Shown one piece after another: positions 31,193 through 55,905 of a DNA stretch of 64,000 nucleotides (position 1 is its first letter; every line of letters begins with the position of its first letter). Origin of the DNA: Arenicola marina (lineage: Eukaryota; Annelida; Polychaeta; Arenicolidae). The position numbers and the translations under genes were made by a program. Below the pieces are notes generated by a model. The model had not been told where the DNA came from. It searched no databases and saw nothing but the letters and a program-made list of their open reading frames with translations. The DNA is taken from positions 7,316,001 through 7,380,000 of the forward strand of contig OZ025255.1 of assembly GCA_964019135.1 (NCBI GenBank). The letters are read 5' to 3'.

Positions 31193-31489
31193 ACTTTCAA
31201 CGAATTTGCGACGACGAAGACTTGTCAATTCCAACTAATAACCACAACTTTTGCCCTTGTAAAAAGTGAAAGCCATTTTCCACTCAAACGTTACGCTTGT
31301 ATTCACTCCCCGGTTCAGGTGATTTGATGGCAGTCTGCTTTAGGGGAGCGTCCGTCCTGTGTGGGTGCGTGATGGACGGGAGGTTGGTGCGTCAGATCTC
31401 CCACCAGACACGTCTGCAGATGACTTTGTCCGTTAGGGCCGTATCTACAAACTGAAGAGAATATCATCGTTTGAGAGAGTCCCATGTTT

Positions 31490-31523
31490 ATATGGTATCG
31501 CAGGGAACATCACGATACCATAT
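31490..31523. repeat. Short perfect hairpin, copy A
   Basis: ATATGGTATCG and its exact inverse CGATACCATAT around a 12-nt loop. The motif GATACCATATAGAAC also occurs at 30770, outside the hairpin. Confidence 0.7.
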
Positions 31524-31641
31524 AGAACAAAGACATGGCGACCAAGTGGAAATAGGCCTCAGGGTGTTCATCAAACATCAACGCATAGGATCTTAACTTT
31601 TTGAAACGACCTCGTCGCCGTAACTTCGTTGCAAGTCATTC

Positions 31642-32062
31642 GACATTTGCAAAACCCAACAATGGAGTCGCATAATGACCCGAAGTAGGCCCCGAAATAC
31701 CGAAGTAAGCGCCGAAATGAACTTTGGCTGTCTTTGCAGTCGCTATCTGTTCATATATGGACCTACGTGATAACACCATGAAAGAACCCACCCCAAAGCA
31801 TCTAAACCGTGCCAATAAAAACTGATGGTTGTCCAACTAAGTGTAAAAATTTCGGCTCCTGCTCAAATGTCCCATCAGCTCGGATTAACACTATTTTGAT
31901 ACTCCGAGGTTACCCCTTTCATAATATCAACACATAAATCCACACCTGAACAAAAAGCTCCCGTAGAGACAGTCAAAGTCCACTTCAGCGTTAACTTCAG
32001 CATCGCGGAGCTAACGTCGAACCGTTATGCGGTCCCATTGTAGATTCTTTGCAAATGTTGAC
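31642..32062. mobile_element. Diverged foldback element 2, copy A
   Basis: Long imperfect inverted repeat with arms of about 120 nt (about 31642-31765 and 31935-32062). Ends are GACATTTGCAAA and TTTGCAAATGTTGAC. On the minus strand the left arm carries CCAAAGTTCATTTCGGCGC and the right arm on the plus strand carries TCAAAGTCCACTTCAGCG. Open frames on both strands here look like side products of this symmetry. No target duplication was identified. Confidence 0.6.
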
Positions 32063-32337
32063 TGTCAACGAAGTGGCGGAGACTATAGGAAGTTTCAAAC
32101 CCAACCTCAGAATCCAAGCTACGTTTGTGAACAAAACTGCCCGCCCATCACCACTCAACCATTACGTCGCTGTCCGTCTGCTGAGCTCAGCAGATTTGCC
32201 TACAATCGCCTTAGGCCCGCACTTGTTCAAATGAAAATTTTGAAAGAATCACGCTTTCCCTTAATAATGGTCTAACATAAGACCGTATCGTGCCATCCAG
32301 GTAATGTTCAATCACAACTGCTAAAATCCGTGCAAGT

Positions 32338-32507
32338 TGACGATTCCGCAGTACTTGAACCCTGAAAGTGAGTAATCATGCGAGTGTATTGATCAATCGC
32401 AGCTGCTACAAATTCTTGTAAGCTGACGATTCCGCAGTACTTGAAACCTGAAAGTGAGTAATCATGCGAGTGTATTGATCAATCGCAGCTGCTACAAATT
32501 CTTGTAA
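32338..32507. repeat. 85-bp tandem duplication, copy A
   Basis: TGACGATTCCGCAGTACTTG occurs at 32338 and 32423. The two copies are nearly identical. Confidence 0.85.
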
Positions 32508-32824
32508 GCTACTGGCGAATGACGCTCCATTTTGGAACTCTTCAAGGATGAAGGTAATAATGTACTTTAGCAGACGACAACTGTCTGTCACACTCAGCTG
32601 AAGCTAGCTGAGTCTGTCGGGATGTAATAACAGAAGGAGAGGAAGAGGAAACCAAACTTGACAGAGGTTTTGTGTCTTCCCCGGGTGACAGAAGTAGACA
32701 GTCAAACGGAAAGAGCTTATAAACGTCGCCAAGTAGCGCTGAGCAGCACCTGTCGAGGTGAGCACAATGGCGGATCCAGCAATTTGTAAAGGGAGGGGTC
32801 CATGGGAAACCTGCGAACGATGTG

Positions 32825-33549
32825 GCGGTGGGGGGGGGGGGGGGGCTGAACGAGGGGGTGGGGGGCGGGGGGTACACGCCTCAGATGGCTTAAGTTTGGC
32901 ATTAAAAATGGCATTCTTTCTCATTCCTCCGCGCGCATATTGCCGTTCAAACGGTACGATCAAAATCTGGCACAAGAGCATAGGCCGAATCAGGGGCGGA
33001 TCTAGCGGCGGGTGGGGGCGCAGGTTAGGGGTGTTTCACTGTAAAAGTCTGGCTTCACGGCGAAGTACACCGCAAAGTGACATGTTGCAGGTGCAACCCA
33101 GTGGCAGTAACCCACCCCTTCAACCAAATGGATGTTTAAGGCGAAATTTATCAAGGACCCTTATGCCGTTTTCCCCCGCAAAATCAAGGCCATCTGATCC
33201 GTCACCCCCCCCCCCCACCCCCACCGACCCTCGGCTGCTAGTTTTTAGACATCGCCCCCCCCCCCCACGTTTCCAGATTAAATTCCCTGCTAGGCGCGAT
33301 CTAAATCTATTTCTCGCGAATATTTCTTTTTGGGTATTATTGATGAAAAAGATATCCCCATAGAGCGGATGGTTACAAACTTCTGACCGGAGGGGGGGGG
33401 GGGGAGGCTCTGAAAATGTGAGTTCATAGACGGGCGGATTTTGGAGGTAAAACGCCCCGACCGAGCGAATTTCGATGGTAAAACCTCGACCGAGCGGATG
33501 GGGGAGGAGGGGGGGCTTTACCGCGGACCCCCCACCCCCCCAAACCGAG
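32825..33549. repeat. Cluster of long G and C homopolymers, copy A
   Basis: Poly-G at about 32830-32845, poly-C at about 33206-33216 and 33256-33267, poly-G at about 33391-33403, and a C-rich end at 33519-33540. Tract lengths differ from the copy B counterparts (57210-57932). Open frames of Pro or Gly runs here are not genes. Confidence 0.85.
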
Positions 33550-34750
33550 CAATAAATTAAGTACCCCACCCCCACTCGCAGGGCCCAGCGGCAAACAGTG
33601 TACAAACAGGCGGGGTGGCACCATTTTCATTGTTCATTAGGGACGTTTAAGAAAATGGGGCGGGTGAGGACTCCTGCCCCTGTGTCAGCCCCTGCTCTCA
33701 CTAATTTGTGGGTATTCGCGACATCAGGGGTATTCCCCTCCCTCGGAAATGGATGTGGAATTAACGGTTAAGGCGAGCATTCACCTTTGGAAAATGCCGG
33801 AAAAGTAGCAATTGATCCCGCTCCGACTGTCAGCTAGCCTACCTTTATTTCCGAGGGAGGCCGGGGGGGATATTTTTCATCAAAATACACTTTCAGAAAT
33901 AAAATAAAATAATCCTGAAAAAAATGAACTCACAAAACCCACATTTCATATGTAAACCAACATTAGAAGAGAACGTCTGGGAATTTAGGTTAAATTTGGG
34001 CGGGTACCCCATCAACCCCCTCCATACTATTCATCACGCCGGCGGACCCCGCGGCACGAAGCCAGCGATGAATCTCTTTCAGTTACGGCCAGCACACAAT
34101 TTGTACGTTAGTGCGCACCGCTTCTCGGCAGGAGGTGCAACTGCAAACATGGTGGAGCTTGATTCGTTTTCGGTTGTTACTGCCACTGGTGCAAAGTTGT
34201 TGTTTCTCGCGCTCCAGGATGCCAACAATTCTACCGCGCAAAATTAAACGCTAATACCTTTTTCTGCAAGTTATATTGGTAAGAGAGCGCTGTACAATGT
34301 GTAGATTCACTTAAAGCGGGTGTCCAACCTAATTAAATCGCGATCTGCACCGAAAGTTTACATCTTAAAATTAAATTGGCGAGTGTTAACGCTTCGTTTC
34401 GGCCGATTGGTAAGGAGAAAAAAATTAAGGCAACCCGCCCCCATCAATGTCAAGCAGAGCGCCATTTTGCCGGGAGCAGTGACGCATATTGTGACTATTC
34501 ATATAGCACCGCCTTACGTTATAACTCGCGGAGAGAGAGATCAGGGCCGCGATTTACAGATGAACAGCGGCAGTTCCAAGCCTCGCAGTAGTGCAAGATC
34601 TTAGTGTTTCATTGCAAAATACCGTCCAAACAAATTGATATACGTCTTGCGACGATTGACTCTGCAACAATGCCATGATTGGAGTTAGAATCGCATCTAT
34701 TTATATTAGCGATTATCACGCGCTCCTGTTTTGCTCACACAATAGGCGCA

Positions 34751-34797
34751 ATTTCCGGTTTGAATAAATTAGAATATCGCCTCCTGATTGGTCAATC
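34751..34797. promoter_or_regulatory. Promoter-like cluster: ETS, CHR-like and CCAAT motifs, copy B
   Basis: Same motifs and spacing as 15064-15110. Confidence 0.3.
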
Positions 34798-34996
34798 GCG
34801 GACACGCCTCCAAAAAGGGCTGCCGCCTGGGTAGGCGGCGAAATTGTGCCTGGCGGTCACTTCTAGATTTTATTGTGAGCTACAGATAGAACGAAAAATT
34901 CTATAATTTGGAGGATAGACAATTGGGTATTATATGAATCGGTAAAGCAGCGTTAGAGGCCAGGCTGGCGGTTCCCTTTAAGGAGGTTCCCGGCAT

Positions 34997-35017
34997 CACT
35001 GTGGCGCCATCTGGTGG
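34997..35017 (-). promoter_or_regulatory. CTCF-type core site, copy B
   Basis: Identical to 15310-15330. Confidence 0.45.
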
Positions 35018-36650
35018 ACTATGCCGCTGCGATCTGGCGATAAGCTGGTACCGCCGCTCATACTCATACTTGTAAGTGAGCGAGCGAGCGAAGTTGGGCC
35101 GCGGAACCAGGCTAATCTGCCGAATGCTCTATTGTCCGCAGGGCGTCATCGTTTATTTCTTGTTTATGTAACAAAGTCGCAAAACTGATGCGCTGTAAAG
35201 GAAATTGCTAGCCAAACGCAAGTCCAAGCAAACTAAAGCACTTATTGGGATGTATAAATATATCTTTGAACGAACTGACAATAGAAAGAAGCCGGCAAAT
35301 TACATAGCGTTGACCACAGAGGCACAGTAAATCAGTGGGAGAGGCGGGGGGGGGGGGGGGGGGGAGTGGAGGGGGCGCAGGGATCCCCCACATCATCGTA
35401 GGCCTATATGCTTACAAGTTTGGTTGCTTAAATGTTTTCATGTAAATTTGATAACACGAAGTATCTTATTCAATCTTGTGAGTACTTTTCGTGTCTCTAG
35501 TTCAGCGTGTTTCCCATTCCGACCCTCAGAATTACTGGCACAATTTCCATGTTCAGAGTAATTTTACGAAAAAAACAAGGTAGAAGACCCATATATTTTG
35601 TTACAGACACATTTTTATTAACTTTGTCTAAGCCGTTTGTTTTCTGTTCAATATTTCGTGTCGAAATTCCAAAATTCTCCATTGACAGCCATTATAAAAT
35701 TAGATGTGACCTCCTACCTCTTCAAAGTCATTTTGACAGAAAAGTAGGCAGAAGACTGAAGAAGAATATCTTTTTTATGTTATTTTATCGTTTTGGATAC
35801 ACATTACAATACACATTGTTTTCGAAACTTTGTTTCCGAAACTTTGTTTCCGAAACGTTGTGCCCGAAAGCGACCAGTACACATCTAAATGTTTTTGCGA
35901 CACGAAGGTCCCGAAACTTCTCTTTGATTTGTCCTACCTTTCGCCCTCTCTGTCGAGGTAAGTCCACTTACTGGATTTCTGCGACACAAAGTACCAGCAT
36001 TTTTATTTAGGTCACTTCTTTGGCCAATGGACATTCGCATCAAATGGCTGACAATCCAGCCGCTGCCTGCGGAGCTGCTGTTGTTTTATGGCAAGCCAAA
36101 GTGGAATTTAATAGAGTATTTGCACATTGGGCTATAAAGTCTCGTTCGATTAGACTTCCGGTTTACTCATTTTGGGGACAAACAAACGAAGCATGTGTTC
36201 GGAACGAGTTTAGAATCTCTGCGCACACTGGTATTCTGACTATCTGTGACGTAGGCGTCACGTGTATGTTACGCAAAGAAAGAGACTGGGAACCAGACTA
36301 CCTGCGCAAAAGCCAGGCGCCGAGGGATTCTGAGCGATATGTGGGGGAACAAATTTCACTAACTCAATAAGTCAGCAGTCTTCATTATTCTTATTTTATT
36401 TTGGAGATTTTAAAGGGTCAAATGTCTTGACCTGATCATATCAACAGAACACATTGTCTTTCAGGCAGCGGCTTGTCAGGAGCACGTGAAACCAATGGCG
36501 ACGCTAGTTGCTCTTTCGCGTCTTGCTCCGAAAGCGGTTCGAGAACTTGGGCGTGGCCGGTATGGTGAGCGGCTTGTCGCTCGGATGCCCTACGCCTTGT
36601 GCACGGGCGCAGGTGTGCAGGTCTGCAAACAAGTGACACGTGTATACAAT
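35018..36650. other. Unassigned stretch, copy B
   Basis: Equivalent of 15331-16962, including a poly-G tract at about 35346-35364. One substitution is visible at 35417 (A, where copies A and C have C). No gene called. Confidence 0.4.
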
Positions 36651-36695
36651 ATCGTCACTGACGTTATACAGGCAGCAACATCGTCACTAACGTTA
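36651..36695. repeat. 29-bp minisatellite, left part, copy B
   Basis: Left remnant of the array at 16963-17212. It is interrupted after GTTA (36692-36695), the target duplication of the LINE. Confidence 0.92.
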
Positions 36696-37010
36696 ATAAT
36701 AATAATAATAATCAGTTTATTGCCAAAAGAAAACACAAATTACATTCATTGAGTACATCTTTACAATACATTTATAGTGGCAAGAGCAGAAGCCAAAGGC
36801 TTATTCGCTCGTATATGGTGAACGTGGTTAGAGTTGAAATTGATTTGCCAGCAAGCTAACAAAGAAAGAAAGCGAGAAGAGAACAGTCAAAAGTAAATAA
36901 TTAAATAAATAAACATAAAAGTAAAGGAGCCATTGAATGTTGATTAAGGTCTAGCACAGCTAGCCACAGTAAAAAAAAATAAAAAAAAAAAAAAATGTAA
37001 AGGCAACAGA

Positions 37011-40000
37011 CTATTCAACAGTGACCGTGTTTAATATAATGCGTTTAACTTCTTTCTTAAACATGTATTTTGACGTGCAAAAATTTACCTTTCTAAGCCA
37101 TTTATTAAATATCCTGGGACCCGTGGTTCTTATTCCCTTTTCAGATAAAGTAGTCTTTGGTTTATGTACCCGCAGATGAGTAGACGCCCTTGTATTATAA
37201 CTGTGTACTTGCGACGTTGGAGTAAATATATCAGCGATAGTCCTGGGAATTGTACCTTGGTAGTAATTATACATAGTTATAACTATTTTATATTCATTTA
37301 GATAAACAATTGGTATCAAATTATACTTTAAGAAGAGTGGTTTTGTGTGTGAAAGCCTTGGTACTCCCGATATTATTCTAATGGCTCTTTTCTGCAACGT
37401 AATGAGAGGTTTTAAATATTTATGACATGTACCGCCCCAAACTTCGTTGGCATAGTCAAGGTAAGGGTAAATAAAGCTGGAGTACAAGGTGCGTAGGGTG
37501 TCGCTGTTTAACAGCTTTCTTGCTTTCACCAAAATACCTATTCCCCGAGCAACCTTTCCCTTAATATATTGGATATGTTCATTCCATGTTAAATTAGCAT
37601 CTAGTTGAACTCCTAAGAATTTCAGACTTGATACTTGCATAATTGTCTCTCCTGCAAGCCTAACCTCCGGACAATGATGAAGTTTCTTTTTGGCAGACCT
37701 AAATACCATATACTTTGTCTTTTTAATGTTTAAGGTTAATTTATTTAACCGCAGCCAGTACCTTACTTTATCCCTCTCGTTATTGAGTGTCAGGATCATT
37801 TGATCGATATTTTTACCCGATATGAAAAAATTGGCATCATCAGCAAATAATATACCAAATAATAAGGAGCTGACATTTGTGAGATCATTAATGTAGATCA
37901 AAAAGAGAAGCGGCCCTAATACAGAACCTTGTGGAACCCCGTCTGCAATTTTAGAGGTAGACGAGTTAATGTTATTATATTCGACATATTGTTTACGTTC
38001 GTAAAGATAGCTTCTGAACCAGTTTAATGATATACCTCTGACTCCAAACTTTTCCAATTTTAAAAGCAGGATGTCATGATTAACAGTATCAAAAGCTTTT
38101 GACAAGTCCAGAAATAATCCTATGGTGTAGTCTCCTTCGTCGATAGCAGTAGAAATTTTATCTACAAGGAGCATAAGGGCCAGCGAAGTGGAATGATTTG
38201 ACCTGAATCCAAATTGGTGTTCATACAGCAAGTTGTATTTATTAATAAAGTTGATAAGCCTTTTATACATTAATTTTTCAAATATCTTTGAAAACGTTGA
38301 GAGGACTGATACTGGACGATAATTGCTAAATAGTTTATCGTCACCATTTTTAAAAACAGGAATTACCTTTGCGATTTTTAGCTCATCTGGAAAAACTCCC
38401 TGGCTGAAGGAGAGATTTATTATGTGTGTCAGCGGGCTCTTAAGCGTATGCAAGGCCGATTTTATTACTTTAGCCGAGATTGACTCCCAGCCCGGGGAGC
38501 TATCTTTTAGGGAACCGATAATTGCACAAATTTCAGTTTCAGTCACGGGATCAAGGAAGAATGTTTTAATATTATTTGTCGTTACGAATTTTAGGGGGGA
38601 TTCATTCTGCGTGGGGATGGCCTTAGACAGCGTTGAACCTATATTTACAAAAAAATGGTTGAAACCGTTGGCAATCTGAGAGCCATCTGAAGTTAACTTG
38701 TCGTTATAGACAAATTGCGTCTGGTTTCGGATAGATTTATTTTTATTGATGACCTCCTTGATTGTTTGCCATGTTTTCGTTAGATTGCCTTGGTTATTTT
38801 GTATTAATTGTTGATAGTGTAGTTTCTCGGCCTGTCTAAGCACTAAAAGAAGCTTATTTTTATAGTTTTTATATTGTCGTGTATGCTCATCATTGGGTTG
38901 AGTTTTAGTTTTATGATATAACTTATTCTTTATGGCAATTGATGTTTTCAGACCAGATGTGAGCCAGGGTTTTCTATTTTTATACCCGGAGCGGGTCTTT
39001 AAAGCTGGGAAGGAGGACTCGTAAATGTTACACACGACATTATGTAGCCTTGTGTACGCCTGTTGCGTATCAGTACACTCTGCTATTCCTGCCCAATCAT
39101 AATCTGTCATTTTTTCATTAAATAAAGAAATGTTTCGTTGACTGAGGTTGCGCCTCCGTAAAACACTATTCGTGTCAGGTATTTTGATTGTTCTACTTAT
39201 GTAAAAGATGGGAAAATGGTCAGTAATATCAGTGTACATAATACCTTGTATCGGTTTGTTGCAGATGTTATTAGTAATAATGTTATCAATTAGGGTTGCA
39301 GTTGTATTTGTAACCCTAGTCGGCTTGTTTATCACTGGGAAAAGGGAATGACTAAATACAGTATTAACAAATTCAGCCGTTGGTCTATGGGTTTCGTTAT
39401 TCAGCAGATTTATTTTATAATCTCCCGCTAAATAATAGATTTTCTTTTCTCCATCAAGCTTATTTAACAAGTCAGAGAACATGTCATTGAAAACCTGTAT
39501 ACTCTTATTAGGAGGGCGGTAGATGGCCCCAATGAGAATATTTGGTTCCTTGGAATTGCACCCAGTATCAAGCTCCACAAACAACGCTTCTATGTGTTCA
39601 TTGAATACATCTAGATCACCTCTCAGTGTACAGTTAATATTATCACGGATGTATAGCGACACCCCCCCACCTCGCTTCTCCGCCCTATAATTGCTGATTA
39701 GGCGATAACCATCCATACCATACAGGTCGTGATTACTCTCTGTAAACCATGTTTCTGTCAAAGCATATACCGGAAAATTATACGATAATGTTTCGAGATA
39801 ACACTTAAAATGTGCAAAATTCTTTTGTGCGCTTCTGATGTTCATGTGCATCACGGAAAATGCCGTGTCATTAATATCACCATCTGCTATTAACTTATTA
39901 AATCCGTCTTCTAGATAATAGTCACAGTTTGCATATGGTTGCATAATTTCGTGATAAAAGTTCATATCCGGATCAATATCATCCAACGGGCAGTCGGTGT

Positions 40001-40313
40001 TGGAATTCAATTCAAAAGGATTAAAAAGCAGTTGTTCCAGTACATCTAATGGTATTGAGCAACTATTCCAACTGCCTTCAGTAATAGCCATCATGAATTC
40101 GTTATCGTTCACAATATCATTAAAAGGAAACATCTCTGACGTACATTTCACACAATACCAGGTCTCATGGGATGTTATGCTGTTTGGGCGACTTTTGGTA
40201 ATGCCACTTAAACAATTAGCGTGAAACGTTTTCTTACAGATGACACATTCAACTTGATACGCATGCTTCAAGATCTTTTTCTTGCATACAGGACACTGTG
40301 GCTTATATAACAT
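37011..40313 (-). CDS. LINE ORF2: PHD-type finger, AP endonuclease, reverse transcriptase
   Basis: 1100 codons, uninterrupted. Residues 7-57 form a C4HC3 PHD-type finger (C7, C10, C23, C26, H31, C34, C54, C57). The endonuclease begins at about 152 with MHMNIRSAQ (N158), LTETWF (E187), GAIYRPPN and ITDHFPIF. Its GDFN motif, however, reads G-D298-Y299-K300, so the usual Asn is Lys. The reverse transcriptase has NYRPVSVLS, HQFGFR, FLDLSKAFDTV, GVPQGSVLGPLLF and FADD (823-826), then the thumb and a C-terminal region ending RIILNTVTVE. The protein would nick DNA and copy element RNA onto the target. There is no RNase H. The start ATG at 40313 lies directly before the finger. Confidence 0.93.
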   Translation of the reverse strand: MLYKPQCPVCKKKILKHAYQVECVICKKTFHANCLSGITKSRPNSITSHETWYCVKCTSEMFPFNDIVNDNEFMMAITEGSWNSCSIPLDVLEQLLFNPFELNSNTDCPLDDIDPDMNFYHEIMQPYANCDYYLEDGFNKLIADGDINDTAFSVMHMNIRSAQKNFAHFKCYLETLSYNFPVYALTETWFTESNHDLYGMDGYRLISNYRAEKRGGGVSLYIRDNINCTLRGDLDVFNEHIEALFVELDTGCNSKEPNILIGAIYRPPNKSIQVFNDMFSDLLNKLDGEKKIYYLAGDYKINLLNNETHRPTAEFVNTVFSHSLFPVINKPTRVTNTTATLIDNIITNNICNKPIQGIMYTDITDHFPIFYISRTIKIPDTNSVLRRRNLSQRNISLFNEKMTDYDWAGIAECTDTQQAYTRLHNVVCNIYESSFPALKTRSGYKNRKPWLTSGLKTSIAIKNKLYHKTKTQPNDEHTRQYKNYKNKLLLVLRQAEKLHYQQLIQNNQGNLTKTWQTIKEVINKNKSIRNQTQFVYNDKLTSDGSQIANGFNHFFVNIGSTLSKAIPTQNESPLKFVTTNNIKTFFLDPVTETEICAIIGSLKDSSPGWESISAKVIKSALHTLKSPLTHIINLSFSQGVFPDELKIAKVIPVFKNGDDKLFSNYRPVSVLSTFSKIFEKLMYKRLINFINKYNLLYEHQFGFRSNHSTSLALMLLVDKISTAIDEGDYTIGLFLDLSKAFDTVNHDILLLKLEKFGVRGISLNWFRSYLYERKQYVEYNNINSSTSKIADGVPQGSVLGPLLFLIYINDLTNVSSLLFGILFADDANFFISGKNIDQMILTLNNERDKVRYWLRLNKLTLNIKKTKYMVFRSAKKKLHHCPEVRLAGETIMQVSSLKFLGVQLDANLTWNEHIQYIKGKVARGIGILVKARKLLNSDTLRTLYSSFIYPYLDYANEVWGGTCHKYLKPLITLQKRAIRIISGVPRLSHTKPLFLKYNLIPIVYLNEYKIVITMYNYYQGTIPRTIADIFTPTSQVHSYNTRASTHLRVHKPKTTLSEKGIRTTGPRIFNKWLRKVNFCTSKYMFKKEVKRIILNTVTVE

Positions 40314-41441
40314 TATCTTCCATAATGACTCTTCCCCTCAAAAGACTCACAACAATAGCCCCAACGTATATTACAGAAACAAAAGCAGAACCAGAAACAA
40401 CGGACTTCACGAACTAACATAAATCAATCAATTACCCGATTGAGCTGAGCTGGTGGTCTATCAGCTCGCTTACAGCAACAACTGTATTGTGTTAACCATA
40501 AGCACACGTGACACTCAATGCCCCTTCCAATCGTAGAGTAGGTCAAACTAAACTCACTAAGAACTGCGGTCCTATGTCTAGTTTGTAAGTGAACAGGTAC
40601 AACTCGATATAACAGGTCATGACGTGTCAATGCCCATTTCCGTCATTGCAGTAAACCTTTTAGTTTGCATAAATAAACAAAGACATGCATCAACTCATTT
40701 ACTCCAGTACTGGCCTGCATACCCAATAAGTTCACTTGGATCTAAGCTGTTTTCTGTTGCAATTTACAAGACCGAGATTAAACTCCGACTCAATAACACC
40801 ATTGGTGACACCATTCACAGTTAGGGGGTCAAGGAGTTGAAGGGCCAAGACAGGGAGACCTGGTAGGTTAGGTGACATCCACCCTCACGTCTTAAAAGAT
40901 TACGTGCGCAGGACATACTGCAGCCGGGGACTTCATGGCCTTGTATCGTCACGTATCATAGTCAGGCTGAGCATTACCGGAGCAGTTAACAGAGGGGGTC
41001 GATACACAACAGAATTGTTAAAGCTAATAGACAGACACAAATTCATGGTCCCAGTGAAGGAGTTGGTTTTCCATCAAAATAACACATAGCTACATTCCAC
41101 ATGCCCAGTGTGAGCAGATTAAAATTAGCTGCACTCGCTACGCCACCCCTCATGATTGCAACGACTAATTTGGGAAGGCCCTGTCACTATGAGCAGTTAC
41201 TGAACGCTGCTGTTAACAGGCACTGCGGCCTAATAGACAATCATACGTTTAGATATAACATATCCATATTATACACATCTTCTCGGCGTTTATATCACAT
41301 ACAGCAAGACAATTTAATAATAAAAAACGATTCGTTTACCTTATAATATGTCGTATAGGATACCAGTTAATCAGTGGGAAATAATCATTGATTTTACCTT
41401 ATTGATCTAATATACTGTGGTATTATACTGTGGGGCGGACC
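40314..41441 (-). other. Long spacer between LINE ORF1 and ORF2
   Basis: 1128 bp without a coding region I can support on either strand. It belongs to the insertion, because no part of it occurs in copies A or C. It could hold an internal promoter or ribosome-entry function, a nested insertion, or a decayed segment; the sequence does not decide. Confidence 0.5.
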
Positions 41442-42758
41442 TTATTCTGATGACAGGCGGTAGACCTCGACCGCGTTATCCACAGCATTCTCGATCAGCT
41501 GATATTTTAGTGAGCCAAGATGTCTGTCTGCCGTGAACCGGGTAACAAAGACCGCGATGTTGTGGAGATTTTTTCTCTGGAGTAGGTATTTGATGTACCT
41601 GCCTGCCCCATGGTCCCCATCGTCCTGGTAACCATCGCAATGGTTCACGTCCTTCTGTGGCTTCAGGCGGTACGCCGCTACATTGTGGGCCGCTCCCGCC
41701 TTATCTGGATTTGTCATGAGCTTGCGGTAGGCGGTCTGCACATCGTTCAAGGTGTTTACCTGGGCAATTGTGGCTGTTGCACTGGATCCCTTCATATACG
41801 TGATATCTCCGTGAATAAGTCTGGGCGGGGCCTTCTCAAGGCTTTCACGCTCTCCTGGCTGAATGGTGAGTATTTCATTTACTTTGACGGCTGGTAGGGG
41901 ATCGATCTGTTTTTCATTGTTCACGTACAGTCCATCATTAGTGACCCGCGTTGTGATGGCAACATCCGGGCCCACTCGCTGTCTGATGGCGTGAGCACGT
42001 TCTCCATATCCCTTTCGCCTTTCAAGTAACTCTTGTGGAAAGTGGGGGGTGATTTTAATGCAGTCCCTGCCTTTCGGGAGTTTCTTGTGGCCAAATTCAA
42101 GCACAGACATTACGTCACTGTAGTTAAGCAGTCTCACAATAATCGGTCTTGGTTTTGCTGCACCTGATATTCTTCTCGAGCCAAGTCGATGACAGCTCTG
42201 GATAAGGGGGGGAGGGCCATGGTATGCGTGGCTAGTCAGAATGTCCAGGAATTTACGGCCACAATTTTCGGGGTGGTGAGGGGGACCTGTGGTATCCTCT
42301 GGTAACTGGTGTATTAACAGGTTATTCCTCATGGAGTACTCACGTAAGTTCATGCACTCTGCTTTGACATCACGCAGCATGGCGTCATGCTTAGCAACGA
42401 TGCTTTTTATGAATGAAAGTTCCCTTTTTAAGTCCGAGTTTTCCTTGAGCAGTATTCCAACGTATCCATAATTTTCATCCGCATTTTGTTCCATGTAGGT
42501 TAGTCTCTCCGTGACCCCCTCATTGCCATGCATGTCGCATGTTAGCACGTCCTGCTGGGCCGACAGTATATCCACCTTGGCGTGGAGAGACTCACAACAG
42601 CCTCCATCCACGTCAACACCGGTCTCAGTTGGTGGTGGCGGCAACCGCAATTTCTCCCCATCATCGCTCATGTTGATCCGAGAGAGGCTTCGACAAAGTG
42701 TAAAAGTCTTTTTTTGTGGTTTGTCGTTACTGCTGGTTCGATTTCTTTTCCTCCCCAT
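41442..42758 (-). CDS. LINE ORF1: L1-ORF1-like RNA-binding protein fused to an IMPACT/UPF0029-like domain
   Basis: 438 codons, uninterrupted. Residues 1-30 are basic. About 55-140 is probably helical or coiled coil (KENSDLKRELSFIKSIVAK). From 144, RNNLLIHQLPED opens an L1-ORF1-type RRM (Transposase_22-like), with PRPIIVRLLNYSDVMSVL and a C-terminal part KITPHFPQELLERRKG (235-250) to about 300. Residues about 318-433 resemble the IMPACT/YigZ (UPF0029) domain: GSSATATIAQV, AHNVAAYRL (357-365), a QDDGDHGAGR box (378-387) like the family's EDDGE..GxGR, then NIAVFVTRFTADRHLG (400-415) where the family has VVVSRWYGGxxLG. The RRM-like part should bind element RNA. What the IMPACT-like part does here is unknown; in host IMPACT this N-terminal-type fold is linked to translation control through GCN1. 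Confidence 0.85.
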   Translation of the reverse strand: MGRKRNRTSSNDKPQKKTFTLCRSLSRINMSDDGEKLRLPPPPTETGVDVDGGCCESLHAKVDILSAQQDVLTCDMHGNEGVTERLTYMEQNADENYGYVGILLKENSDLKRELSFIKSIVAKHDAMLRDVKAECMNLREYSMRNNLLIHQLPEDTTGPPHHPENCGRKFLDILTSHAYHGPPPLIQSCHRLGSRRISGAAKPRPIIVRLLNYSDVMSVLEFGHKKLPKGRDCIKITPHFPQELLERRKGYGERAHAIRQRVGPDVAITTRVTNDGLYVNNEKQIDPLPAVKVNEILTIQPGERESLEKAPPRLIHGDITYMKGSSATATIAQVNTLNDVQTAYRKLMTNPDKAGAAHNVAAYRLKPQKDVNHCDGYQDDGDHGAGRYIKYLLQRKNLHNIAVFVTRFTADRHLGSLKYQLIENAVDNAVEVYRLSSE

Positions 42759-42891
42759 AGGCCGGCTGTGTCTACCTTATTCAGGGCAGAAAATGGTGTT
42801 GCTTGTTGCTGGTTAACGTTTTAAAAAGTTGATTGTTTTGAGACCACCGCTGGCACACGTCTTACTCTGCCGCCATCTCAGTAACAGTACA
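42759..42891 (-). promoter_or_regulatory. 5' UTR of the CR1/L2-like LINE
   Basis: 133 bp from the mapped insertion boundary to the ORF1 ATG. It begins near TACTGTTACTGAGATGGCGG. LINEs of this kind carry an internal promoter here, but no specific motif beyond a YY1-like GATGGCGG is seen. Confidence 0.5.
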
Positions 42892-43100
42892 GTTATACAG
42901 GTAGGAACATCGTCACTAACGTTATATAGGTTGGAACATCGTCACTAACGTTATGCAGGTAGGAACATCGTCACTAACGTTATACAGGCAGCAACAGCGT
43001 CACTAACGTTATATAGGTAGGAACATCGCCACTAACGTTATACAGGTAGGAACATCGTCACTAACGTTATGCAGGTAGGAACATCGTCACTAACGTTATG
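42892..43100. repeat. 29-bp minisatellite, right part, copy B
   Basis: Continuation of the array after the LINE, starting with the second GTTA. Confidence 0.92.
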
Positions 43101-44456
43101 CGTGCGCCACTAGATGAACAAATTGATGAACCTCGGTGATTAGACGTTTGACACAGATAAATTCATCTATCTGGCCACATACTGAATATCAGATATATGT
43201 TGTTCTTCCCCGTCTTATATATTTTGTATTATCTTCCAATTCTTCACCGTGTGTATTGTTTAACTGAGCGCGAAACTTCTGTTGGGAGTCTTGGCTGTGA
43301 TTTACGCTATATAATTTCCTAATTATCTTGAGTATAGGAGGCAAATAAACAGTACATGGTATCCTGTTAGTAGCGAATACATATAGTATTATTGTACGTT
43401 TAATTGTTAACCACTGAGTCGGCATAGAGGTCAGAGTAACAGATAACGCTGGAGATACCATAAGAAAAATACTGATTATCAAATGAAATAAAACTGTTAT
43501 GTGGACCATGCACAATTAGGAACGCTTTGAAGTCTCAAACTTCAGTGAGATTCCTTGAACACTGGTATATCTTTATACATCTGAAATCTTCAACAGTCGT
43601 TTTCTTGTGCCTTTAGCGCTCTACCCTGTAACTTCATTGTCAATCATAGCTGCGACTTCCACTGCGACAAATGAAACAGAATTTCAAATAACGAATTCAT
43701 TTGCTGATCATATACAGCTGGCTGAAATCTGGGTGGTTATGTTGATTTTATTACATCTCACTTAATGTTGATTTACCTTTTTGATACGAAAATGGAAAAA
43801 AAATTCACTAGTTAATATAAACGCTACTAATAACTTGGAAATTGTGCGTATTGGTCGGTCCAAATGGTGATGACATCCAAGTGCCCAATAAGAATAAGCA
43901 TCTTTATTATCTTTAAAAAGTGTGTCACTGATAATAATATTGTACAGTTCGCACCCTGTCACCTAAAAGCTGGGGCACGTTTCACCCTAACCCTGGTACA
44001 TGCCTCTGACCACGCCCGTAAACGGAGCAAGGGTGAGAGCCCCTGGGTGAGACCCATGCCGCTCACCAGGCCTAACATTAGAAATCGCGGACCGGTGGCT
44101 CAAGTTGAAGGTCCTAATAGAATAAATATGCAGTGCCTACCCGTCAAGTTGCTCCATTAGATTCTTGAAGCTTTGACTTTCGTAGGACAATCATTTCTTT
44201 GGTCGGTAGCGTATTTTTTCAGGTGTTCGCGATGCTTTGGTATAAGTAGCAGTGCCGCGACAGAGTTCTGCGGTGTCGCGGGATAGACACGTTTGACACA
44301 TCACAGCCGAAACGGCGATGTTTATTAGGTGTCTGAATTAATAAAATGAAGCAATCGTGTTTTCTGCAAGGTGTGATATATATATATATATGTAGCTTGG
44401 ACTTAGTTTGGCGGGAAAGAGCTCAATATGCAACTTTAATAAATGAACCCTCTTAC
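43101..44456. other. AT-rich stretch, no gene recognised, copy B
   Basis: Equivalent of 17213-18570. Lacks one CT dinucleotide near 44006. Confidence 0.4.
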
Positions 44457-44535
44457 CTTGTGCGACTCCTGAGCCAGCTTGCGCATCTCCTTGGGCTTGA
44501 CGGCATTGGTCCCGACAGTGAATTTTGGCTTTCTC
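44457..44535 (-). CDS. Host exon with in-frame 21-bp deletion, copy B
   Basis: Same exon as 18571-18670, with both splice sites kept, but seven codons shorter (79 bp). The residues between EMRK and LAQESHK (QSAQRRK) are missing. The deletion lies between two copies of CTTGCGC present in A and C, so slippage between direct repeats explains it. Phase is preserved. Confidence 0.5.
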
Positions 44536-44623
44536 CTAGGGGTGCGAACGGAAATGGAAAAAAGAAGAAGAAATGAATTGGGTGTTCGGGGCTAATTTTG
44601 TGCACACAAGCAAAGGGTTAAAC

Positions 44624-44906
44624 TGAGCCTAACAGGTTGTAATAAATGTATATTCAGGACGCGTTAACCAGTTTTGGTCATATCGCGTCAATCCAATGAG
44701 AGAAGGAAATTAAGGGAGAGTGGAGCCATGTCCCCGGGGGTAACTCCCTTGCTCTTTGCAAAGAAGGACATGGGATCATTATCCTGCGACCACAAAGACA
44801 TGGCCACAGCGGGGCTCGAACTATCGACCCACGTGCCGTTAGGCTCTCAGGTGGCCAAAGGAAGCAATGCGAGCGCTCTATTCCACTGAGCTACCGGGCC
44901 GGCCCC
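44624..44906 (-). mobile_element. tRNA-derived SINE, first of pair, copy B
   Basis: Counterpart of 18759-19041. Confidence 0.75.
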
Positions 44907-45093
44907 TGAGCCTAAAAGGTTGTAATAGTTGTATATTCAGGACGCTTTAACCACTTTCGGTCATATCGCGTCAATGGGAGTAGTAAGGGAGAGTGGAGCC
45001 ATGTCCCCGGGGGTAATCCCCCTGCTCTTTGTGAAGAAGGACATGGGATCTTTATCCTGCTACCTGCTTCCACTGTGCTACCGGGCCGGCCCC
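44907..45093 (-). mobile_element. tRNA-derived SINE without head, copy B
   Basis: Counterpart of 19042-19228, with the same internal loss. Confidence 0.7.
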
Positions 45094-45210
45094 TGAGCCT
45101 AAAAGAAACTGCCCGGGACGATGAATGATGCATGGATGAAACAGACCCAGGCTTAGATGCTTCTTTGATCTTGCCCTAACCGCTACACCAGGGAGGCCCC
45201 GTTGGCGTGA

Positions 45211-45442
45211 GGGACCGCCTCGATAGCTCAGTGGGTTTGGAACCTGAGAGGCTAACGGCACGCGGATCGGTGGTTCGCGCCCCGCTGTGGCCAGTTCCGT
45301 GCGGTCGCAAGATAGAGATACCATGTCCTTCGCGAAAAGTAGGGGGTTACCCCCCGGGACATGGCCCCACTCTCCCTTCATTCTCCCATTGACGCGATAC
45401 GACCAAAAGTGGTTAATGCGTCGCGAATATACAATCAACCAA
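45211..45442 (+). mobile_element. tRNA-derived SINE with 12-bp target duplication, copy B
   Basis: Counterpart of 19346-19577. CCGTTGGCGTGA flanks it on both sides. Confidence 0.88.
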
Positions 45443-45682
45443 CCGTTGGCGTGAACGGAAATATTGGTGTCAATGATGGGTGATATATAAAACAAAAAGC
45501 CCAAAGAAAACAACACAGATAGCTAGAGCCGTTTCCCACCAAAACAATACGAATCCACTAAACCATGAAATGACACATAACATTTTTATCTTCGGCCCGT
45601 TTGGTGTACTAAAGGGTTAAATTAGGCCAAGGAACTTCACTGAACAGTGACTGATTTAGACGAAATATCTCTCAGATTACAT

Positions 45683-45755
45683 CCCTTAAACCGGGTTTCG
45701 AACCAGGGACCCGATCTGCAGTCGAGCGTTCTACCACTCGGCCACGGCGGGTTCC
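45683..45755 (-). tRNA. tRNA-Cys-like relic, copy B
   Basis: Counterpart of 19818-19890, with the same poorly pairing acceptor ends. Confidence 0.6.
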
Positions 45756-45831
45756 ACTCAACCAGGAGTAACGGGTCTCAAAGCGACTACAATACGTGAA
45801 AATAGCGTAAACTGAGGAACCATTAACTTAC

Positions 45832-46017
45832 TTGAGGACGGTCGCGGTGCCGGGCACGGTCTTTTTGCCCTGTCCAGCGCTGGAGGGGTGAATGGGGGGC
45901 TTGTTGCTGCAGGTGGTCTTGCCAAGCGGGATGCTTGACGCGGACGCGTTGCTGGATGTTCTCTTCATCACTGGTTGGTTGGCATCCGTCCGTCGGCGAA
46001 AGACGATGGATTTGCAG
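45832..46017 (-). CDS. Host exon next to a LINE, copy B
   Basis: Counterpart of 19967-20152. The donor GTAAGT is intact. Splicing to 44457-44535 stays in frame. Confidence 0.45.
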
Positions 46018-46028
46018 CTTTGTTTGGT

Positions 46029-47392
46029 TTAAGTTATACGATACGTAACGCGGCATTTACGCTGATGACTGAGTAAGCCTATCTGTGATCGACAGAGCTT
46101 TCCGCAGTCATCGCAACGGTGACCTGTCAATAGATCTTGGTTTGTGCTCGCTGGTGGACGCCTAGATTGGCGTTTCAAGTCCAGTTTCACAAACCATAGC
46201 GAGTCGTGGTGGGCCATTCCGTCACGCACGACACGTGCCCATCCCCTCTTTTTTGATGCCAAGTCCTCCCAAAAATCTGGATCGATGCCGAAAGCCTTCA
46301 TGTCCCGCTTACAAACATCCTTAAAGCTAAGCTTTGGCCGTCCAGTTGGCCTTTTGCCGTCAACGAGTTCACCGCATAGCACATCCTTGGGAATGTGTTT
46401 ATCTTGCACACGATGAACGTTCCCAAGCCAACGTAGATGACTTTGCTTCACAAGAGCAAGAATGCTTGGTAGGTTGGCCCTGGCTAACACTTCAGCATTC
46501 GTGATCTTGTCTTGCCAAGATATGCCTAAAATGTTTCGCAGGCAACGAAAATGGAAGTTATTCAATTTACTTTCTTGGCTGCAATACGTAGTCCACGTGT
46601 CACTGCCATACAGCAAGCTACTTAGAACGCACGCCCTGTAGATTAGCATTTTGGTGCAAATGGTAAGTTTTGAATTACGCTGAGCACGTTTGTTTAACCT
46701 ACCAAACATGGTGGCCGCCTTCCCAATTCGAGTATTTATTTCCTCGTCCAGGGATAGATTATCCGTGACGGTACTTCCCAGGTAACAAAACTTATTAACC
46801 ACCTCTAAAGACATGTTGTTAAGGGTAATCACTGGCGGTGTGATAGCCCCTTGGCTCAGTACGACTGTTTTTTTAACACTAATAGTCAAAGCAAATAAAG
46901 TACACGCATTTGAGAGCCGATCCATGAGTCTCTGTAGCTGGCTTTCTGAGTGCGCAACCAACACTGCGTCGTCAGCGAATAGCAGTTCTCTTATTAGGAA
47001 GCGCCTCCGCTTGGACTTAGCGCGCAACCTTGAAGGGTTGTACAGGTTCCCATCAGATCTGGTGTGTAAGTAAACACCCTCCGCATCCTCATAAAATGCG
47101 TGAGAAAGAAGCATAGAGAAGAAGATGCCAAATAAAGTTTGCGCAAGAACACAACCCTGCTTCACGCCATTTCTGACTTGGAAGCTCTCGGACGTTGCTC
47201 CGTCGAACTGTACTGTGCTGAACGAGTGTTCATGAAAGTAGCGGATAAGGTTAAGTAGTCTGCGGGGGCACCCAATAGACTCCAATATTTTGTACAAGCC
47301 AGATCTGCTGACAGCATCAAAAGCCTTGGTAAGATCAACAAAAGCAAGGTAGAGGGGCTTGTGTTGTTCTCTACATTTCTCTTGAAGTTGAG
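46029..47392 (-). pseudogene. 5'-truncated LINE (RT and zinc finger), copy B
   Basis: Protein identical to the copy at 20164-21527. The open frame continues to 47504 through non-LINE sequence. Confidence 0.85.
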
Positions 47393-47610
47393 CCCCCTGC
47401 GGGTTCGGGGGAAAGTAGAATAGGCCCGATGCACCTCCATGTTTAACATCTGCATGTCTTAAGAGGCGACTAAATGGAGGCGAACCGTATGCCGTGGTTC
47501 GCAACCCGTGTCGGAGGAAGACGGGACTCTGCTGGTTGAGTGGAAACTCTGTTTCTGCAAGATACCAGTTTGACCCTTATTTCTCCTAGACGGGAGGTCA
47601 GATTTGGCCC
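47393..47610 (-). mobile_element. Possible SINE body joined to truncated LINE, copy B
   Basis: Counterpart of 21528-21745. Confidence 0.3.
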
Positions 47611-47830
47611 GGTCTGATCAATCGGCTCGTCACGACAAGTCCAAGGATTCTTGTTCAACAACATCATATCAAGAACATTTTCACCCTATTATTCATACAA
47701 CCGTATGCAATGAGTCTTTTGAGACACCTCATATTTCAGTTGCTCTGAACAAGATCCTGTTAGGACGGTGGCTTGGGCTAATCAAGTGGCAAATACCTCT
47801 TTTTTTCCAACAGAAGAATAAGTATTTGTT

Positions 47831-49213
47831 ATGCGAGTATACCGTCTGTGTATCCTTGGCACTGGGTGCTGGAGTACCGCACCGAATCAGTGTCCCGAGA
47901 GGGCTCCGAGGTGGGTGGGGACCACGGACGGTGAAATATTTAAACCCAACAGGAGTACCCAAGAAAAAAACCCCACACCTGCCGAAACAAAAGCACGAGA
48001 AGAACGATCCAATAAGAAACTTCGAACAAGCTCTCCTACACATCAACCAAATCAACAAAACGACAATTTTTCAAGATTTTTGATGGCACACGCCACAAAT
48101 CCAGATTTACCTCTTTCGAAATTGTCACCATTTGCACTGGATAAGGCCATCCAAAGTCTGGCCGGAGAACCAAAAGATGTCAAACGACTCCGCTCCGGTG
48201 ACCTCCTCATCGAGGTCACACGGAAGAGTCATGCTGACAACCTCCTCCGAGCCACGACCCTCCTCCATATCCCAGTTACAATAACTCCTCACCGTACCCT
48301 CAACAATAGCCGAGGTGTCATCCGGTGCAGAGACCTACAAATGTGTTCTGACACAGAGATAGTTACCGAGTTGGCCTCACAGAATGTCATGGAGGCCAAA
48401 CGGATATCAATCACGAAAAATGGAGAAAGAATTCCAACAAATACTATAATTCTCACATTTGCATCCCACATCCCTCCTACAACAATAAAAGCTGGATACC
48501 TTCGTGTACCAGTCGACATCTATATACCAAACCCACTACGCTGTTTCCAATGCCAACGCTTCGGCCACGGAAAGAACAACTGCAGGAGGCAAGTCACCTG
48601 TGCTCGCTGTGGCGACGAGGGCCATGAAGAAACCTCCTGCAGCAAACCGAGTCACTGCGTAAACTGCAAAGGCAGTCACTACGCATACTCAAAACAGTGT
48701 CCAATGTGGCAAAAAGAAAAAGAGGTACAGACAATAAAAACTAAAAATTCCATATCCTATCCCGAAGCGAGAAAAGTAATAGAAAGTAAAACTACAAATG
48801 TAACTGGAAACAAAGCATTCGCTGAAGTGACGGGCTCGACCCAAACCAAATCCAATGAAACAACACCAAAACCAAACATGGTTTCCATAGGGATAAACAC
48901 TGTTTATTCTTGGCCACCAGATGCAGAATTCACAATTACAACAGAAACCCCAGAGGAGACAGGAACATCCAGCCAGACAGAGCCCATGATAGAAATTCAA
49001 ACAAAGACACCTGCAAAGAAACCTCCTACAAAATCCACTCCAAAACCCACCACCCACAAACTGAACAAATCGAAACCAGCAAAACTAAACCGACCACCCA
49101 AGGGATCAACGGATCCCATCAAAGTACATAACAAATACTCGCAACTAGAGGAGGAGGACGATGAGGAAATGGAGACAAGAAAACACAAGGCAGATACGCC
49201 ACCCATATCATAA
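47831..49213 (+). CDS. LINE ORF1 with three zinc knuckles, copy B
   Basis: 460 codons, open. Identical to the copy A protein except Lys for Arg in VIESxTTNV. Confidence 0.88.
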   Translation: MRVYRLCILGTGCWSTAPNQCPERAPRWVGTTDGEIFKPNRSTQEKNPTPAETKAREERSNKKLRTSSPTHQPNQQNDNFSRFLMAHATNPDLPLSKLSPFALDKAIQSLAGEPKDVKRLRSGDLLIEVTRKSHADNLLRATTLLHIPVTITPHRTLNNSRGVIRCRDLQMCSDTEIVTELASQNVMEAKRISITKNGERIPTNTIILTFASHIPPTTIKAGYLRVPVDIYIPNPLRCFQCQRFGHGKNNCRRQVTCARCGDEGHEETSCSKPSHCVNCKGSHYAYSKQCPMWQKEKEVQTIKTKNSISYPEARKVIESKTTNVTGNKAFAEVTGSTQTKSNETTPKPNMVSIGINTVYSWPPDAEFTITTETPEETGTSSQTEPMIEIQTKTPAKKPPTKSTPKPTTHKLNKSKPAKLNRPPKGSTDPIKVHNKYSQLEEEDDEEMETRKHKADTPPIS

Positions 49214-52200
49214 ACCATGGCTTCCATTATACAATGGAATTGTCGATGAAATCCTCTTGCTAAAGCAGGACCACAACCCCATAGCGTTTTGTCTCCAAGA
49301 AACATTCATCAAAAACCAAGGCGATATAACAATTAGTGGATATACATCATATGATAATCTAGGACTTAATACGGGAAATAAAATCACAGGCGGAGTTAGT
49401 ATCCTTATAAAGGAGAAAACTCCACACAGCCAAATACCCTTGCAGACCAACCTACAAGCTATGGCCATACGAATAACATTACACAAAACCATAACCCTGT
49501 GCTCTATCTATATTCCACCTAATTTACGTCCAACACGACTAGAACTAGAAAATATAATAAAACAACTTCCTGCGCCGTATATACTTCTTGGAGATTTCAA
49601 TGCCCATCATACGATATGGGGTTGTAAAGACATACAACCCAAGGGCCGCCTGCTAGAGGACTTTATCTTAAAAAACAATACCGTTCTGCTCAACGATGGC
49701 TCGATAACTTATATACACCCTGGGAATGGTGCCAAAACGGCTATAGACCTAACTATAGCCCATCCCAGTCTATGCCTTGATTTCAACTGGAAAGTGGAAG
49801 ATGATCTTCACGGCAGTGACCACTTCCCTATCCTTCTTACTAGCCAATTTCCCGCTCCAGATGAAAATATTGCTCACTGGAAGCTAAATAAGGCTGACTG
49901 GACTGCTTTTAAAAAAATGTGCTTTGAAAAACTCACAACAGCCAACTTTCAAGGTATACCAGACCCAATAGCCCTCTTCAGCGAAATACTTCATAAAATA
50001 GCTGAAGACACCATTCCCAAAACCTCGACCAATCTCAAAATACAAAAGAAGCCATGGTTTAACGATGAATGCCGTGAGGCCGTACAACAACGAAAACAGG
50101 CTCAGCGAGAACTCCAAATACATCCTACTCCAGGAAATATCCTCAAATATAAACAAGTGCGAGCACAGACCCGCCGCACAATACGAACAACAAAAAGGGA
50201 ATCCTGGAGAAACTATGTCTCCAAACTTGGAAATAAAACAACCACTAAGAAAACGTGGCGAGCCATACAGAAGATCAGTGGGAAAAAAGCAAATAACAGC
50301 ATAAACCACCTGATTCATGAAAACACAACCCTCACCGAACCAGTGCAAATAGCCAATACCTTGTCGAAAGCCTTTGCAACAAATTCTTCCTCCAAAAATT
50401 ACACGGCTAAATTCCAAAGATACAAGGCGGTTAGTGAGAGGAAAAAACTCAATTTCAAATCCAAAAATGATGAATATTACAATAGCCTCTTCTCCATAGA
50501 GGAACTCCAGTCTGCCCTGAGGAAAACTAACAACACTTCTCCAGGGCCAGACAATATCCCATACCAATTCCTGAAACAACTACCCGATACATCCTTGGAA
50601 CTTCTTCTCGACATATTCAACTTCATTTGGCAAACCGGGCAAATACCCCCATCGTGGAAAAAAGCGATAGTCATTCCTATCCCTAAGCCTGGGAAGGATC
50701 ACACCAATCCTTCTTCTTACCGACCAATAGCTCTTACAAGCTGTATATGTAAAACACTAGAAAAGATGATAAATAACCGCCTTACATATTTTCTGGAAAC
50801 AAATAATATCATCACTAAGTTCCAGAGTGGCTTTCGACAAAACAGAAATACCACCGATAATTTAATACGATTGGAGACCTATATACGCGAGGCATTCATC
50901 AAAAAAGAACACGTGGTGGCAGTATTCTTTGACCTTGAAAAGGCATATGACACCACATGGAAATATGGTATTTTAAAAGACCTCCATGATATGGGACTCA
51001 GAGGTCATATGCCAAATTTTATTCAAGAATTCCTAAACAGACGTCTATTTCAGACAAGGGTCGGAACTACCCTCTCCGAAGTATACGATCAGGAGATGGG
51101 GGTTCCCCAAGGCAGTATCCTATCTGTAACCCTTTTTAGTATTAAAATCAACAGCATCATAAAATGTCTCACTAACAACATAGATCCTTCTCTATTTGTT
51201 GATGATTTTTTGGCCTGTTTCAGGTCCAAACATATGCACACAATAGAAAGGCAACTACAAATGAACCTCAATAAGTTACAACAATGGTGCGATGAGAACG
51301 GATTTAAATTTTCAAAAACTAAAACAGTGTGTATGCACTTCTGTCAACTCCGGAAACTCCATCCGGAACCTGAACTTAAAATGAATGGGGATCAAATACC
51401 AGTTGTGCCAGAAACAAAATTTCTCGGCCTTTTATTCGATAAAAAACTGACTTTTATACCCCATATCAAACAATTAAAACAGAAATGTACCAAAGCACTT
51501 AATATAATTAAAGTGCTATCTAACACAGAATGGGGAACAGAAAGAGAGACATTATTAAATATCTACAGAGCCCTGATACGGTCACGGCTGGATTATGGGT
51601 CGATGATTTACGGATCAGCACGCAAATCATATTTGCAGATGCTGGACCCTGTGCACAACCAAGCACTTCGTTTATGTCTGGGAGCTTTCCGCACATCTCC
51701 TGCGGAAAGCCTGTACGTGGAGTCTGCTGAGCCATCTCTATACTACCGTAGAGATAAATTAGCACTACAATACGCACTTAAGCTCAAAACGAATCCCAAT
51801 AATCCTACCTTTGAAGACTTATTCCATCCAAAGTTTACAACACTATTTGAAAACAAACCAAAGACAATACCCACCTTTGGAATTCGAGTCAATAACCTTT
51901 TGACAAGATACAATATAAATTTCAACGATATACGAACCTGGCACCTCCCAGAAATCCCACCATGGGAAATGGAATCTCCAAAAGTTCTATTAGAACTAAC
52001 AACTTACAACAAATCTGACACAGACCCATCACAATTTATAGAACTTAAACATGCTATTCACAATCAACACCCGAACCATTTCTCTATATATACCGATGGC
52101 TCAAAAGACTCCCACAGGGTGGGCGCTGCAGCTGTGGCTGGTGAACACCAGTGCAGCAACCGCCTCCCAGACCAATGTTCGATATACACCGCGGAAGCGG

Positions 52201-55871: not shown

Positions 55872-55905
55872 ATATGGTATCGCAGGGAACATCACGATAC
55901 CATAT
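55872..55905. repeat. Short perfect hairpin, copy B
   Basis: Counterpart of 31490-31523. Confidence 0.7.

Follow-up and report, generated by a model that had tools for sequence, protein, structure and literature searches.

The first open reading frame (ORF1) of a long interspersed nuclear element (LINE) of Arenicola marina joins an L1-type RNA-binding core, made up of an RRM and the C-terminal domain (CTD), or at least its beginning, to a UPF0029/IMPACT-YigZ domain at its C-terminal end. The element lies in a stretch of 64,000 nt (GCA_964019135.1, OZ025255.1:7,316,001-7,380,000; hereafter the window), and the genome searched comprises 867 Mb in 762 contigs. The fusion is old within the genome, widespread and kept by purifying selection. 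Our joint reading, on which belief and doubt are about evenly balanced, is that a recently inserted LINE encodes an ORF1 with an L1-type core and a UPF0029 domain that acts as an accessory nucleic-acid- or ribonucleoprotein (RNP)-binding module. ORF1 runs from ATG to stop on the minus strand, unbroken and unspliced over 438 codons (41442-42758); the plus strand has many stops across the same interval. The uninterrupted frame had been noticed in an earlier note made from the letters alone, and it holds, with the strand being minus; the motifs AHNVAAYRL, QDDGDHGAGR and NIAVFVTRFTADRHLG all occur within ORF1 in the order given there, and its residue numbers are approximately correct for this protein. 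The features of ORF1 are the following:

41442..42758, minus strand: ORF1, 438 aa, with N-terminal region, L1-type RRM/CTD and UPF0029 domain (frame, Pfam, family profile)
41859..42341, minus strand: L1-ORF1p-like RRM and CTD region, about residues 140-300 (family profile A1 hits 2ykp, 2yko, 2ldy and 2w7a; end of the CTD uncovered)
41472..41789, minus strand: UPF0029/IMPACT-YigZ domain, residues 324-429 (PF01205, E 1.4e-15; fold match to 1vi7, 6bqi and 2cve)
41559..41603, minus strand: LINE-specific basic helix GRYIKYLLQRKNLHN, residues 386-400 (net charge over the 20 alignment columns in which the helix lies)

The two parts of ORF1

The Pfam family UPF0029 (PF01205) matches the window ORF1 over profile positions 2-106 of 107 with an E value of 1.4e-15 and 57.6 bits, above the curated gathering score of 27; at E up to 1, Pfam lists no other family in this protein. 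UPF0029 is also matched in all 14 members of a set of ORF1s that we picked from the available loci and that includes several partial ones (A1). When the window ORF1 alone was used in phmmer, the only solved relative was an IMPACT homologue, yeast Yih1 by title (6bqi, E 0.0015), and the A1 family profile matches the same entry over the C-terminal domain with an E value of 9e-12. An alignment-free structure model of the domain, of moderate confidence (pLDDT 61.8, pTM 0.63), has the order strand-strand-helix-strand-helix-strand-helix, and the three solved structures nearest to it are 1vi7, which we take to be YigZ of E. coli, Yih1 (6bqi) and a Thermus homologue (2cve). The C-terminal tail is folded in the model and not disordered, and sequence profile and fold together bear out the IMPACT/YigZ assignment that the earlier note had made from motifs.

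Below the YigZ and Yih1 rows, the list of similar structures holds translation factors, ribosomal proteins and exosome subunits, mixed with unrelated enzymes; some of these chains are presumably EF-G domain IV and S9. The UPF0029 domain has an S5-domain-2-like fold, a fold class that holds several RNA- or ribosome-bound proteins. A second profile, A2, was built from 16 LINE domains (22 passed a filter on length and identity, and L033, L034, L047, L048, L054 and L055 were set aside). Its scores, 52 bits for Yih1 and 6 for E. coli YigZ, place the domain with IMPACT; an exon that most likely belongs to the host's own IMPACT gene (see below) scores 17. The earlier note had proposed that the element captured a host domain. 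What stands is that a LINE ORF1 carries, as a fusion, a domain from the IMPACT/YigZ family, that the domain is nearer to Yih1 than to YigZ, and that a probable host IMPACT exon is present in the genome; capture from the host is borne out in part, by a comparison that covered a single stretch from yeast, a single sequence from bacteria and the host exon. As for a viral source, one pattern-matching stretch in IMG/VR encodes no relative of the domain, by a method that reaches close relatives only, and BFVD holds no structure at E 0.001 (best 0.023).

The core of ORF1 is of the L1 type. The A1 profile matches human LINE-1 ORF1p in 2ykp (E 2.7e-5) and 2yko (E 3.2e-5) and, over all four entries 2ykp, 2yko, 2ldy and 2w7a, with E values from 2.7e-5 to 0.045, so that an RRM of the L1ORF1p type is present. 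The match runs from the end of the coiled coil (in 2ykp) through the RRM into the start of the CTD, the remainder of which falls outside it, with the limits of coiled coil and CTD placed where we take them to lie in the LINE-1 ORF1p structures. The L1-ORF1-like RRM region of the earlier note is thus upheld by the family profile, although Pfam lists no L1 ORF1 family in the window ORF1 (E up to 1) or in any of the 14 A1 members. A joint structure model of residues 138-438 has a pLDDT of 38, too low to place RRM, CTD and UPF0029 domain relative to each other.

The LINE insertion and its relatives

ORF1 belongs to a LINE of 6,196 bp whose parts within the window are:

36696..42891, minus strand: whole LINE insertion, 6,196 bp (two near-identical paralogous stretches lack exactly this segment, with breakpoints 17004-17007 and 61073-61076)
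42892..42895, no strand: target-site duplication GTTA at the 5' end of the element (junction letters; 4-bp overlap of flank alignments)
36692..36695, no strand: target-site duplication GTTA at the 3' end of the element (junction letters; 4-bp overlap of flank alignments)
42759..42891, minus strand: 5' untranslated region, 133 bases (between the end of the element and the start codon of ORF1)
40314..41441, minus strand: inter-ORF spacer, 1,128 bases (length nearly equal in four further copies, C20, C5, C17 and C176)
37011..40313, minus strand: ORF2, 1100 aa, with weak N-terminal PHD finger, endonuclease region and reverse transcriptase (Pfam)
36696..36712, minus strand: 3'-terminal (ATT)n simple repeat, AATAAA immediately upstream (sequence)

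GTTA stands at both junctions of the occupied site and once in each of two unoccupied copies, which makes the insertion a single unit of 6,196 bp; its flanks are 99.0-99.97% identical to the unoccupied duplicates in the window, and it entered a short tandem repeat. The reverse transcriptase (RT) of ORF2 is matched by Pfam RVT_1 with an E value of 6.5e-37. Under their cut-offs are the N-terminal PHD finger (E 0.0019; 18.6 bits, cut-off 24) and both endonuclease models (PF14529, E 0.02; PF03372, E 0.14). From RT motifs that we take to mark this lineage, the (ATT)n end and the type of ORF1, we judge the element to be, probably, an APE-type LINE of the CR1/L2 lineage. A scan of 36500-43100 with Rfam gave no family at its gathering score.

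The window holds duplicates of one stretch at 99.0-99.97% identity (13863-17007, 33550-36695 and 57933-61076; 17004-28742 and 42892-54610; 29783-36695 and 54148-61076), together with a run of 200 N at 13663-13862. These duplications are either a very recent tandem duplication or an effect of the assembly.

In a genome search with ORF1, of which the best 96 of 1325 candidates were scored, full-length ORF1s at 99-100% identity were found, among these matches, on C8 (the window copy), C17, C5 and C20, with a further, partial copy on C176. In all five, an ORF2 match follows ORF1 at a distance of 1.13-1.14 kb, with stops in the ORF2 of the C5 and C17 copies. The LINE family has moved recently, with ORF1 and ORF2 as a unit. 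The domain reaches far beyond this family: in a search with PF01205, all 150 places scored (the best 150 of 289 candidates) were above the cut-off, and a search with a distant family member (the best 150 of 630 candidates) added 111 places to the first list, so that at least 261 places in the genome match the UPF0029 domain. One is the exon at about L059 2329-2450, which reads NVIVIVTRWYGGIHLGPDRFKHINNC and most likely represents the host's own IMPACT gene.

About 0.7 kb upstream of this probable IMPACT exon, L059 carries a minisatellite (about 40-1650, minus strand), with a unit of 41 bases as judged from frame offsets, that reads as a 40-residue stretch (VTWWADPPTQHERESLGGRSLLPNTSVSHLVGG...) between stops each 123 bases.

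We read 59 sequences, the window and the 58 partly overlapping loci L001-L058. The UPF0029 domain is present in 59 of 59 and the RRM region in 57; a reverse transcriptase or endonuclease follows downstream on the same strand in 18 of the 20 longer loci (L039-L058), L039 and L049 being the two without. Upstream of several ORF2s that are 55-56% identical to that of the window (for example, C2:2869766, C8:30167566 and C12:40365116), no listed ORF1 or UPF0029 place was seen by eye, in lists where some of the candidates carry a score (for example, 150 of 974). The ORF2s of L040 and L056 differ from the window family in having no PHD-like finger at the start of the frame, and the inter-ORF spacer is shorter in L040.

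These data bear on the reading that the fusion is an artefact, be it a chance resemblance of motifs, a join in the assembly or a host exon lying beside a LINE. It is rejected by the Pfam and fold matches, by the single unspliced frame, by the genome search, in which each of the 150 places scored passed the cut-off, and by the target duplication that bounds the insertion, with its two unoccupied sites. Its probability is practically nil.

Selection and shared history

The protein is held by purifying selection, the added domain as firmly as the RNA-binding core. The earlier note had proposed a selection analysis of the domain across elements, which we carried out on nine ORF1s as the proportions of synonymous (pS) and nonsynonymous (pN) differences, given in place of a dN/dS ratio because synonymous divergence is saturated or nearly so. 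In the UPF0029 domain pS exceeds pN in 36 of 36 pairs (pS 0.63-0.89, pN 0.25-0.45), and the corresponding ranges in the RRM/CTD are 0.71-0.95 and 0.28-0.48; the protein is conserved despite the saturated synonymous sites. The domain could nonetheless be a passive passenger or a structural cap that merely stabilises the protein, so that any folded domain would serve, and the available text of PMC7140605 and PMC4503747 gives no direct function for it. We consider this quite unlikely, given that pN lies far under saturated pS in all 36 pairs, with a strength like that in the RRM/CTD, and that specific residues are invariant in the LINE domains.

RRM/CTD and UPF0029 domain were inherited together, since their distances agree (Mantel r 0.64, p 0.0002) across 17 elements, which are those remaining of 50 after near-duplicates were taken out. 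With the RT, a first comparison at n=8, which took RT matches on either strand and anywhere in the locus, found no correlation (UPF0029-RT, r -0.06, p 0.53; RRM-RT, r 0.19, p 0.27). A second, restricted to RTs on the same strand and at most 5.2 kb downstream, by a filter picked after the first result, gave r 0.62 (p 0.003, n=12) for UPF0029-RT and r 0.52 (p 0.025, n=10) for RRM-RT. The agreement of the ORF1 parts with the RT is weaker than that between the parts, and depends on the filter.

Whole-ORF1 exchange between ORF2 lineages is likely in L043/L058, to judge from the trees. The ORF1 of L043/L058 nests in the group of L044, L054, L056 and L057, with support of 0.97 for the domain alone and 1.00 for ORF1. 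The RT of the same two loci groups with the window and L052 (0.90), with L045 outside (1.00), away from L044/L054/L056/L057; a direct pairing with the window has support of 0.20 only, in a tree that holds a very long L052 branch. Over the one third of the RT that is present, L043 is 54% identical to the window and 30-36% to the L044/L054/L056/L057 group. The ORF2 of L058 begins with a Cys/His finger of the window type, after a spacer of similar length.

Conserved and altered residues and possible functions of the domain

A.H.....R and DG..G..R are invariant in all 16 A2 domains, and the first D of DDG is nearly so. The helix after the DDG loop is basic (GRHxRYLLxR), with a net charge of +2 to +6 in 16 of 16 LINE domains versus 0 in Yih1 and YigZ, and the charge of the whole domain is 0 to +9 in the LINEs versus -3 and -5 in Yih1 and E. 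coli YigZ, these two being the few outside references on which the comparison rests. The R[WF][WY]GG loop, which the host exon and Yih1 have, is not intact in any of the 16 A2 rows, and the window ORF1 reads RFTADRHLG at this position. An RWD domain was found neither in the window ORF1 (E up to 1) nor, at E up to 0.1, in any of the 14 A1 members, several of which are partial.

In the reading that we prefer, ORF1 may coat RNA as an L1-ORF1p-like chaperone, and its UPF0029 domain may be an accessory nucleic-acid- or RNP-binding module. The domain would have been remodelled, gaining a basic helix after the DDG loop and losing the RWYGG loop of host IMPACT, and it might help in holding the RNA of the element, or in keeping the RNP close to the translating ribosome, instead of working as a free GCN2 regulator.

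The earlier note had offered, as one option, an action on translation or stress signalling. Spelled out, ORF1 would compete with host IMPACT or engage GCN1/GCN2 (or actin, or CDK1), and translation of the element RNA would thereby go on under stress. The homology to IMPACT/Yih1 is in keeping with this, and a Yih1 fragment, 133-258, that holds the ancient domain still bound Cdc28 (PMC4503747). Gcn1 binding and Gcn2 inhibition are, however, assigned mainly to the RWD: changes in it lower Gcn1 binding, and overexpression of just the RWD is enough to inhibit growth when amino acids are scarce (PMC7140605, PMC4503747). According to one passage, the regions sufficient for binding of Gcn1, actin and the ribosome extend into the linker between RWD and UPF0029, and the 'ancient' UPF0029 domain is described without a known function (PMC7140605, PMC4503747). 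Since no RWD was found in the LINE proteins, the GCN1/GCN2 idea loses its main support and, with the RWYGG loop intact in 0 of 16 LINE domains, the whole proposal seems to us rather improbable. The alternative in the same note, an extra RNA-binding fold, appears to fit better than an action on GCN1/GCN2.

Possibly, the domain retains the ancestral UPF0029 ligand, read by the conserved face of DDG and A.H.....R, and brings that activity into the element RNP. These residues are invariant or nearly so in the aligned LINE families, and the features common to Yih1 and YigZ sit in loops on one side of the molecule (PMC4503747). The second conserved loop, RWYGG, is however intact in none of the 16 LINE domains, and the available text of PMC7140605 and PMC4503747 does not name the ligand of the family, so that we hold this to be unlikely, if still worth consideration.

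Relation to known elements and proteins

The closest known system is the type II (L1-type, 'transposase 22') ORF1 of L2/CR1-lineage LINEs, especially subtype IIB of L2 subgroup 5 (Metcalfe and Casane, 2014, PMC4120745). As described there, subtype IIB likewise has an RRM/CTD ORF1 like human L1ORF1p, followed by a stop and a start and by a PHD finger that probably opens ORF2. In contrast, the window element ends its ORF1 with a UPF0029 domain, its PHD match is weak, and L040 and L056 lack a finger at the start of ORF2. LINE ORF1s that bear an esterase (type IV) or a PHD finger also combine an extra ORF1 domain with signs of ORF1 exchange (PMC4120745), but the domain differs.

IMPACT and Yih1 (6bqi) share with the LINE protein the 'ancient' UPF0029 domain and its fold, and Yih1 the DDG and A.H.....R positions. 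The LINE domain differs in that no RWD was found with it, the RWYGG loop is lost and a basic helix gained, and it is intronless and lies inside a LINE. E. coli YigZ, which we take to be the protein of 1vi7, stands much further off by sequence (6 bits versus 52 for Yih1); 1vi7 and Thermus TT1547 (2cve) have chains of 190-206 residues, with an extra part after the UPF0029 domain.

In the survey of 448 elements by Metcalfe and Casane, ORF1 domains comprise coiled coil, RRM, CTD, CCHC, PHD, esterase, and zinc finger or leucine zipper, and ORF1 exchange is inferred for CR1 and L2 elements (PMC4120745). A search of the main text of that paper for the terms UPF0029, IMPACT and YigZ found no mention. 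In the open-access literature we found no report of a UPF0029/IMPACT/YigZ domain in a LINE; Repbase and subscription journals lay outside this search, and prior notice there is possible.

To the known swaps of accessory domains in LINE ORF1s (zinc knuckles, PHD, esterase; PMC4120745) the Arenicola elements add one that is shared with a translation regulator, of an ancient type present in prokaryotes and eukaryotes. Many natural variants under selection in one genome offer a ready alignment for locating the important face of UPF0029, and what the domain does could be measured by retrotransposition assay. It would be something of a long shot that a LINE lineage built a domain from a eukaryotic regulator of translation into the protein that packages its RNA, tying the RNP to the ribosome or blunting stress arrest, and that the module then spread by ORF1 exchange. 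If true, the element would encode a retrotransposon's own handle on translation.

Other repeats of the window

A second LINE lies on the plus strand at 21966-27012 and 47831-52877, its two copies arising through the duplicated stretch; its ORF1 is Cys-rich, zinc-knuckle-like by eye, and its ORF2 carries endonuclease, RT and RNase H. A minisatellite with a 28-base period occupies about 28200-30300 and 54080-54610, is strongly G-rich and skewed at 28-30 kb, and differs in length between the duplicates. From position 3 of the window runs a long tandem satellite of 46 bp (first 1638 bases shown), for which the repeat finder counts 93 overlapping copies, 30 of them listed.
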